This document shows, one piece after another, positions 50,172 to 53,466 of a stretch of DNA of 64,000 bases. Location of the stretch: contig JAGWNK010000010.1 of NCBI GenBank assembly GCA_028871345.1, forward strand, positions 1 to 64,000, given 5' to 3'. The translations under genes and the position numbers were made by a program. Position 1 is the first letter of the stretch. The number at the start of each line of letters is the position of its first letter. The notes under the pieces were generated by a model that saw only the letters and a program-made list of their open reading frames with translations, was not told the DNA's origin and made no database searches. Origin of the DNA: Alphaproteobacteria bacterium. Lineage in GTDB: Bacteria; Pseudomonadota; Alphaproteobacteria; Micropepsales; Micropepsaceae.

Positions 50172-52868
<2,697 letters not shown>

Positions 52869-52929
52869 GGCCATTCGTTCCTTCCGTTCGCCGCGCCTCG
52901 CGGCTTCGATCTCTCCTTTCGCTGCCGAT

Positions 52930-53009
52930 CCCCTAAACACCCGGCGCGGAGCATCCGCGCCCGCCGGCGCCTAGGGGCTGCTAAGGAGGAGAAGCCGGTT
53001 CTGCGACAA
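52930..53009 (-). promoter_or_regulatory. Candidate leuA transcription attenuator: leader peptide (M)SQNRLLLLSSP plus hairpins
   Basis: Minus strand 53009..52971: TTG TCG CAG AAC CGG CTT CTC CTC CTT AGC AGC CCC TAG; four consecutive Leu codons, then perfect hairpin GGCGCGGA-TGC-TCCGCGCC (52943-52961) and CCCCTA/TAGGGG pairing around it. Confidence 0.6.
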
Positions 53010-53466
53010 ACCGAGGGAAGGACGGGCCGCGAGCGCAATGCGCGCGCCGACGCCTGCGGAGAACCCGCAGTCCACGTCGTGCCAAATCGCGCCTTGCTTC
53101 ATCGCCGGATCGCCGTTCCGCCCGCCGAGTTTTTCAGCTCGCCAACTTTAACGATATGCCGTTAAGCGCCCCTGAAGACGCGGTTCGACCTCGTGGGAGG
53201 CTTTTACGCCGGAAGGCTCGTGCGGCGCAAGGCCAACTCACTGTTTCCGCGGTGAAAATTACGACAGCCGCCACCCTTGCCGGCGCTCCGGCAAGGGGCT
53301 CCTCCGAGACCTTCCCGTGGCCGCCGGGGCGACAAAAAAGGTCACGGCGGAATCGATTTTCGCTTTGCCTGCCGCGGGTCGCCATGGTTGTGTGCAGCCG
53401 AGCCGCACGGACTCACGTACGGATCAGCCGACGACATCCGACCACCTGCTTCGAGGCACGCTGGAC

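Follow-up and report, generated by a model that had tools for sequence, protein, structure and literature searches.

Upstream of leuA in an alphaproteobacterium of the family Micropepsaceae lies a short reading frame with a run of consecutive Leu codons, which probably serves as a leucine-responsive leader-peptide attenuator acting on the translation of leuA. The reading frame is conserved throughout the genus, and its RNA pairs with the spacer in front of leuA to form a covarying rod, which in folds of the ribosome-free RNA covers the leuA Shine-Dalgarno (SD) sequence. We infer that this sequestration is relieved by a ribosome stalled at the Leu codons, and likewise the position of the promoter, the charging of tRNA-Leu as the signal, a switch to the alternative hairpin H4 and the direction of regulation. 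The window referred to below is the whole stretch of DNA analysed, 64,000 nucleotides of contig JAGWNK010000010.1 (assembly GCA_028871345.1).

Leader reading frame and Leu codons

The preliminary description of this region proposed a Leu-codon leader peptide controlling leuA, and this proposal is strongly supported. In 50/50 genus relatives, that is, in those having sequence upstream of leuA, a Leu run is present 5' of leuA, and after it come two residues, then Pro (Ser in one), then a stop codon; no genome within the genus was found to carry leuA without the run. The four Leu codons are mostly CTT, a rare codon, or CTC: CTT makes up 144 of the 204 leader Leu codons, versus 4.8% of Leu codons across a set of genes from the window. 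From the conservation within the genus and the bias towards a rare codon, the run is not a chance occurrence. On the minus strand, positions 53009-52971 read TTG TCG CAG AAC CGG CTT CTC CTC CTT AGC AGC CCC TAG; this sequence and the distance of 141 nt to the likely leuA start, ATG 52868, were described correctly. An alternative leuA start, ATG 52874, is less conserved among the genus relatives.

The leader frame had been given as 12 codons beginning with TTG 53009, possibly by leaderless initiation. An in-frame ATG at 53102, 31 codons 5' of this TTG, occupies the same aligned place in 49/49 genus relatives (the fiftieth sequence begins within the ORF at a contig end and is not counted). The position of the TTG itself holds TTG in 19/49 relatives and a Ser codon (TCT or TCG) in 30/49. 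Across the 49 sequences the length of the ORF is 40-44 codons, and every indel is a multiple of three. This conservation contradicts the 12-codon frame and a start at TTG 53009, leaderless or not, and the leader is best read as MKQGAIWHDVDCGFSAGVGARIALAARPSLGLSQNRLLLLSSP from ATG 53102. A leaderless transcript as such is possible, though not one starting at TTG 53009. It had further been suggested that the leuA leader and a second branched-chain leader, that of ilvB, share the same odd start. For leuA this fails, as the TTG is not the start; for ilvB the TTG lies at the real start position, which in the genus is mostly ATG, with few GTG and two TTG (the window included). The ilvB TTG is a plausible real start because relatives have ATG or GTG at that position.

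Just 5' of the leader ATG lies the 15-nt element CGGGCGGAACGGCGA, almost unchanged across the genus alignment while its flanks diverge; the copy at 53124-53110 is the sole exact one in the genome. Candidate roles are a promoter edge, a 5' end or an initiation element.

Structure of the leader RNA and predicted occlusion of the leuA Shine-Dalgarno sequence

When the window sequence is folded over the span from just 5' of the leader ATG as far as leuA, a single long rod results, with over 50 base pairs and small breaks between them; it is divided here into helices P1 to P4 (Table 1). A near-identical nested rod was obtained for nearly all of the 49 species when each was folded singly. It consists of the leader's latter half together with the leader-leuA spacer, the outermost helix lying over the leuA SD.

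Table 1. Positions of the leuA leader features and of the neighbouring ilvB leader in the window.
Feature	Position	Strand	Evidence or remark
Leader ORF, 43 codons + stop, MKQGAIWHDVDCGFSAGVGARIALAARPSLGLSQNRLLLLSSP*	52971..53102	minus	ATG in 49/49, in-frame indels, Leu run in all
leuA (2-isopropylmalate synthase)	51309..52868	minus	ORF, close LeuA relatives, start conservation in the genus
leuA Shine-Dalgarno, GGAAGGA	52885-52879	minus	inside P1 3' strand
CGGGCGGAACGGCGA, nearly invariant	53110..53124	minus	just 5' of leader ATG; genus alignment
H1, small hairpin in leader ORF (TGCGGG..TCCGCA)	53055..53069	minus	six pairs
P1 5' strand, CGTCCTTCC, anti-Shine-Dalgarno, in leader ORF	53016..53024	minus	MFE fold; pairs with 52885-52876
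P1 3' strand, holds leuA SD	52876..52885	minus	SD unpaired probability
P2 5' strand, GTTTGTCGC	53003..53011	minus	pairs with 52894-52886
P2 3' strand, GCGGCGAAC	52886..52894	minus	single-species folds, pair-change counts
P3 5' strand, CTT CTC CTC CTT + one preceding base	52983..52995	minus	pairs with 52918-52903
P3 3' strand, AAGGAGAGATCGAAGC, Leu-run complement, SD-like	52903..52918	minus	no conserved start codon after it
P4 5' strand, CCCCTAGGCGCC, with leader stop codon	52966..52977	minus	class-wide core helix
P4 3' strand, GGTGTTTAGGGG	52930..52941	minus	RNAalifold, folds, class-wide covariation
Inner 8-bp hairpin, GGCGCGGA-TGC-TCCGCGCC, atop P4	52943..52961	minus	MFE fold
H4, small hairpin GCCGC...GCGGC	52890..52904	minus	competes with P2 for its 3' strand
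ilvB leader, upstream of ilvB (start 63620), TTG AAA ACG ACA CTC GTA GTA ATT CGC	63758-63640	minus	

The inner 8-bp hairpin is real, its arms GGCGCGGA (52961-52954) and TCCGCGCC (52950-52943) being perfect complements. A pairing of CCCCTA at the leader stop with TAGGGG, which had been proposed to compete with this hairpin, is possible; the competition is not supported, the two being nested and stacked in one structure. In the RNAalifold consensus of the 49 genus sequences, the hairpin closed by CCCCTA/TAGGGG includes the leader stop codon and encloses the 8-bp hairpin. We therefore rejected the competing-hairpin model; P4 and the inner hairpin do not constitute a mutually exclusive antiterminator and terminator.

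Placed on the genus alignment, the rod has 89.6% of its cells paired, versus 42-52% when the partner strand is slid, and 72 two-sided changes versus 25 in shuffles. When arms were swapped between species, none of 5000 swaps paired as well as the native arms for P1 and P2 together, for P3 or for P4, and 14/5000 did so for P1 by itself; both the swap and the shuffle statistics are inflated by the relatedness of the sequences. Two-sided changes occur at three pairs of P1 and, 7-9 times each, at the three inner pairs of the inner hairpin. P4 is supported class-wide, with 93.5% of cells paired and 44 two-sided changes versus 15.5 in shuffles. As for the small hairpins, each of the six pairs of H1 is formed in 38-46 of the 49 species, the outermost exchanging between G-C, A-T and T-A, and H4 has 92.3% of cells paired, with one pair changed from C-G to T-A in six species. 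Part of the rod pairing is to be expected, CT-rich Leu codons lying opposite purine-rich SD sequences.

Two further candidates were rejected. The sequence AAGGAG at 52918-52913 was considered as an SD serving leuA or a second small ORF; it has no conserved start codon downstream and is complementary to the Leu run. The conserved Pro-stop end of the leader was considered as a peptide arrest signal; in one large family (f22, loci L205-L208) the leader ends CGC CTC TGA, so that Pro is replaced by Leu, and the pairing with AGGGG is kept by means of a G-U pair. This speaks for RNA pairing, and against peptide arrest, as what maintains the Pro codon, and the Pro-stop conservation thus looks like a constraint on the RNA.

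Occlusion of the SD was evaluated against synonymous leaders, in which the last 22 leader codons were recoded by drawing from the codon usage of the window genes, twenty times per species. In the ribosome-free RNA of the 49 species the mean unpaired probability of the SD is 0.07 for native versus 0.51 for recoded leaders, so that the SD is, by prediction, paired as in a translational attenuator. The native SD is less open than the recoded mean in 48/49 species, and in 40 it is not above any of the twenty controls. The nucleotides of the leader, beyond the peptide, are therefore tuned to cover the SD, and the predicted sequestration of the SD by the leader RNA is well supported computationally.

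Beyond the genus, 42 sequences drawn from other families of Alphaproteobacteria gave a weaker effect, with an SD unpaired probability of 0.27 native versus 0.42 recoded; the native value was lower in at least 19/20 controls in 19/42 sequences, and in 12/42 the SD was no more hidden than in the recoded controls. Outside the genus the partner of the SD varies, and in four Hyphomicrobiales loci (L021, L057, L073, L082) the Leu run itself pairs with the SD. At three loci (L008, L009, L147), GGGGAGGAG follows right after the stop-codon hairpin and the 3' strand of P4 runs into SD-like sequence, which is possibly another way to cover a ribosome-binding site.

Proposed mechanism and alternative explanations

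In the mechanism that we propose, the RNA of the last ~18 leader codons would pair with the spacer to form the rod P1-P4 and mask the leuA SD. With leucine plentiful, a ribosome would complete the leader and depart at the stop codon, upon which the rod would re-form and leuA would be poorly translated. With leucine scarce, the ribosome would wait on the Leu codons, covering the 5' strands of P3 and P2. With the first Leu codon in the A site, positions 53011-53003 would lie 6-14 nt 5' of the P-site codon. Covering of the P2 5' strand would free GCGGC, and the spacer could fold H4 instead, exposing the SD.

We scanned ribosome positions along the leader using equilibrium thermodynamics with a masked ribosome footprint. 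When P1 was allowed to form across the ribosome, mean SD accessibility was 0.12-0.18 at the Leu codons and 0.13 at the stop codon; when upstream sequence was barred from reaching across, the SD was open (about 0.7) at every position. As the model lets P1 form across the ribosome, the scan does not discriminate between Leu codons and the stop codon, and the switch must therefore rest on dwell time or steric blocking.

An attenuator with competing structures had originally been proposed; structures of the terminator type are not supported, as we found no convincing terminator and the helices make up one structure. The leader does have, at the sequence level, one feature of a classical attenuator, a predicted ORF with consecutive Leu codons, a conserved ATG (49/49) and a preserved frame. 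Another, an intrinsic terminator before the structural gene, is absent by the standard rule in the window. Termination could instead depend on Rho, loading on the spacer or early leuA when leuA is untranslated or when the leader ribosome releases; a leuA mRNA left without ribosomes is the kind of transcript on which Rho would normally act. The missing standard terminator agrees with such a reading, and the same idea has been raised for terminator-less actinobacterial cys leaders (PMC1262725). The spacer, however, is strongly structured and G-rich, and SD sequestration already supplies an output, so we regard attenuation by Rho as unlikely, the best placed among the alternatives nonetheless. 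On this reading the leader would set the action of Rho through the position of the ribosome, and such termination may add to translational control.

Classical transcription attenuation comes next and is likewise improbable. Here, once the ribosome on the leader had arrived at the stop codon, the inner hairpin and the weak GTGTTTAG tail behind it would serve as an intrinsic terminator, though a poor one. A relaxed rule (4 T in 8) does give matches in 26/50 genus leuA leaders, including that of the window (GGCGCGGATGCTCCGCGCC followed by GTGTTTAG), but a stricter rule (5 T in 8) leaves 7/50. In the ilvB leaders of the genus, by comparison, a terminator is found in 30/30 at 4 T and in 26/30 at 5 T in 8, the one in the window being AAGGGGCGGCGACGCCCCTTTCGCTTTT. 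Moreover, the leuA tail is itself paired in P4, and many class-wide homologues have a GC-rich tail (e.g. TGGGCACTCAGGGG) with no T tract. The terminator scans being weak for leuA and strong for ilvB, SD occlusion is a likelier output than intrinsic termination.

Very little speaks for the rod being mainly an RNase III processing site or mRNA stability element, with the leader mattering only through unfolding by the ribosome. A rod of the length found in the window is a plausible RNase III substrate, but this would leave unexplained both the Leu codons before a leucine gene class-wide and the rare-codon bias, and in other families P4 alone is clearly conserved. Equally remote is a protein or small molecule binding the RNA, with the leader not a ribosome sensor, as the discoverers of the closest analogue, the LEU element, read theirs (PMC1262725); what is conserved here is a reading frame (49/49), Leu codons and base pairs, with no obvious conserved unpaired pocket in the alignments A1 and A2.

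Distribution and relation to known leaders

A covariance model of the core, extending from the Leu codons through AGGGG and built from part of the class, was used for searching. The core, i.e. Leu codons and the hairpin around the leader stop, was found in 66/289 sampled alphaproteobacterial genomes, which is a lower bound, as the filters were strict and the model drew on some members of the class. Among the named carriers are Methylosinus, Methylocystis, Alsobacter, Phreatobacter, Microvirga and Rhodoblastus, and leuA lies downstream in 30/30 loci inspected. Covariation within the core is strong, for example CCCCTAG..TTAGGGG to CCCCTGA..TCAGGGG (at one pair, AU 36 and GC 21). A sample of the phylum gave 32 genomes with matches, all of them Alphaproteobacteria. 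In this sample family f160 had no model match among the genomes listed, mostly of 6-7 Mb, which suggests that the leader was lost or has strongly diverged there. The leuA loci examined in Pelagibacteraceae have no such leader. The genome of the window holds one clear copy of the core and no convincing second element elsewhere, and one exact core string had no match in a viral collection. Of the Rfam families, only a tRNA reached the gathering threshold in the window, and no relevant match was seen at E<=10; the covariance models of the cis-regulatory families, Leu_leader included, thus do not recognise the element.

The enterobacterial Leu_leader (leuL) encodes a leader peptide with consecutive rare Leu codons and is a classical transcription attenuator. 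The window element likewise has rare Leu codons in a row ahead of a gene of leucine biosynthesis; unlike Leu_leader it has no terminator/antiterminator pair and no Rfam match, and its predicted output is translational. In the ermC-type translational attenuators of antibiotic resistance genes, a leader ribosome stalled by a drug, which is the signal, frees the sequestered SD downstream. The window element would work alike in freeing the SD, with uncharged tRNA-Leu and not a drug as its signal.

Closest is the actinobacterial LEU element, whose Leu-codon run, also 5' of leuA, forms a stem with the SD of that gene; the paper describing it leaves the way in which it regulates undecided (Seliverstov et al. 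2005, PMC1262725). The two have in common a leader ORF with a Leu run before leuA, leader RNA paired with the SD and no evident terminator. They differ in that the genus of the window covers the SD with a separate helix, P1, the Leu run pairing with its own complement in the spacer, and in that the core helix of the genus forms around the leader stop codon. The base stem of Leu run and leuA SD which defines the LEU element is thus absent from the window, where the SD pairs with 53024-53016, and present in some relatives outside the genus. The LEU element also has a conserved internal pseudoknot; the folding of the window element covered nested structures. By analogy the window element appears LEU-like in logic, and by its base stem it is not a member within the genus.

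Among alphaproteobacterial leaders, that of ilvB, lying about 11 kb off in the same genome, is likewise a branched-chain leader peptide, but in 30/30 genus relatives it carries a clear intrinsic terminator, which the leuA leader lacks. The Sinorhizobium meliloti trpL/rnTrpL is leaderless and belongs to a transcription attenuator (PMC10117765). It too is an alphaproteobacterial amino-acid leader peptide; the leuA leader differs from it by a conserved ATG following a conserved 15-nt element and by the lack of a standard terminator. The small-ORF papers on S. meliloti and Caulobacter, in the passages considered, cover trp, trpS and ilv leaders with no leuA leader among them. A 2005 screen for alphaproteobacterial RNA motifs refers to the ilvB leader, not to leuA, as previously described (Vitreschak et al. 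2004; PMC1273637). The literature covered here contained no alphaproteobacterial leuA leader; the key 2004 survey (Vitreschak et al., FEMS Microbiol Lett) falls outside that coverage and could contain one.

We put at even chances that the element represents an undescribed class-wide alphaproteobacterial RNA family, in which leucine starvation would be sensed by the leader ribosome and would unmask the leuA SD, the mask being made of leader codons (P1, P2 and the Leu run). Such a family would be a translational counterpart of the textbook leu attenuator and would have arisen in parallel with the LEU element of Actinobacteria. Attenuator surveys that rely on terminators would miss leuA leaders of this kind, for which Rfam lacks a family. 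This work yields an alignment, a covariance model and, as something to seek in existing ribosome-profiling data, a short leader peptide that is unannotated. The mode of action of terminator-less leuA leaders, including the LEU element, would become testable in genetically tractable alphaproteobacteria. If our reading is true, leuA in many alphaproteobacteria would be controlled by leucine through ribosome stalling, with no terminator involved.
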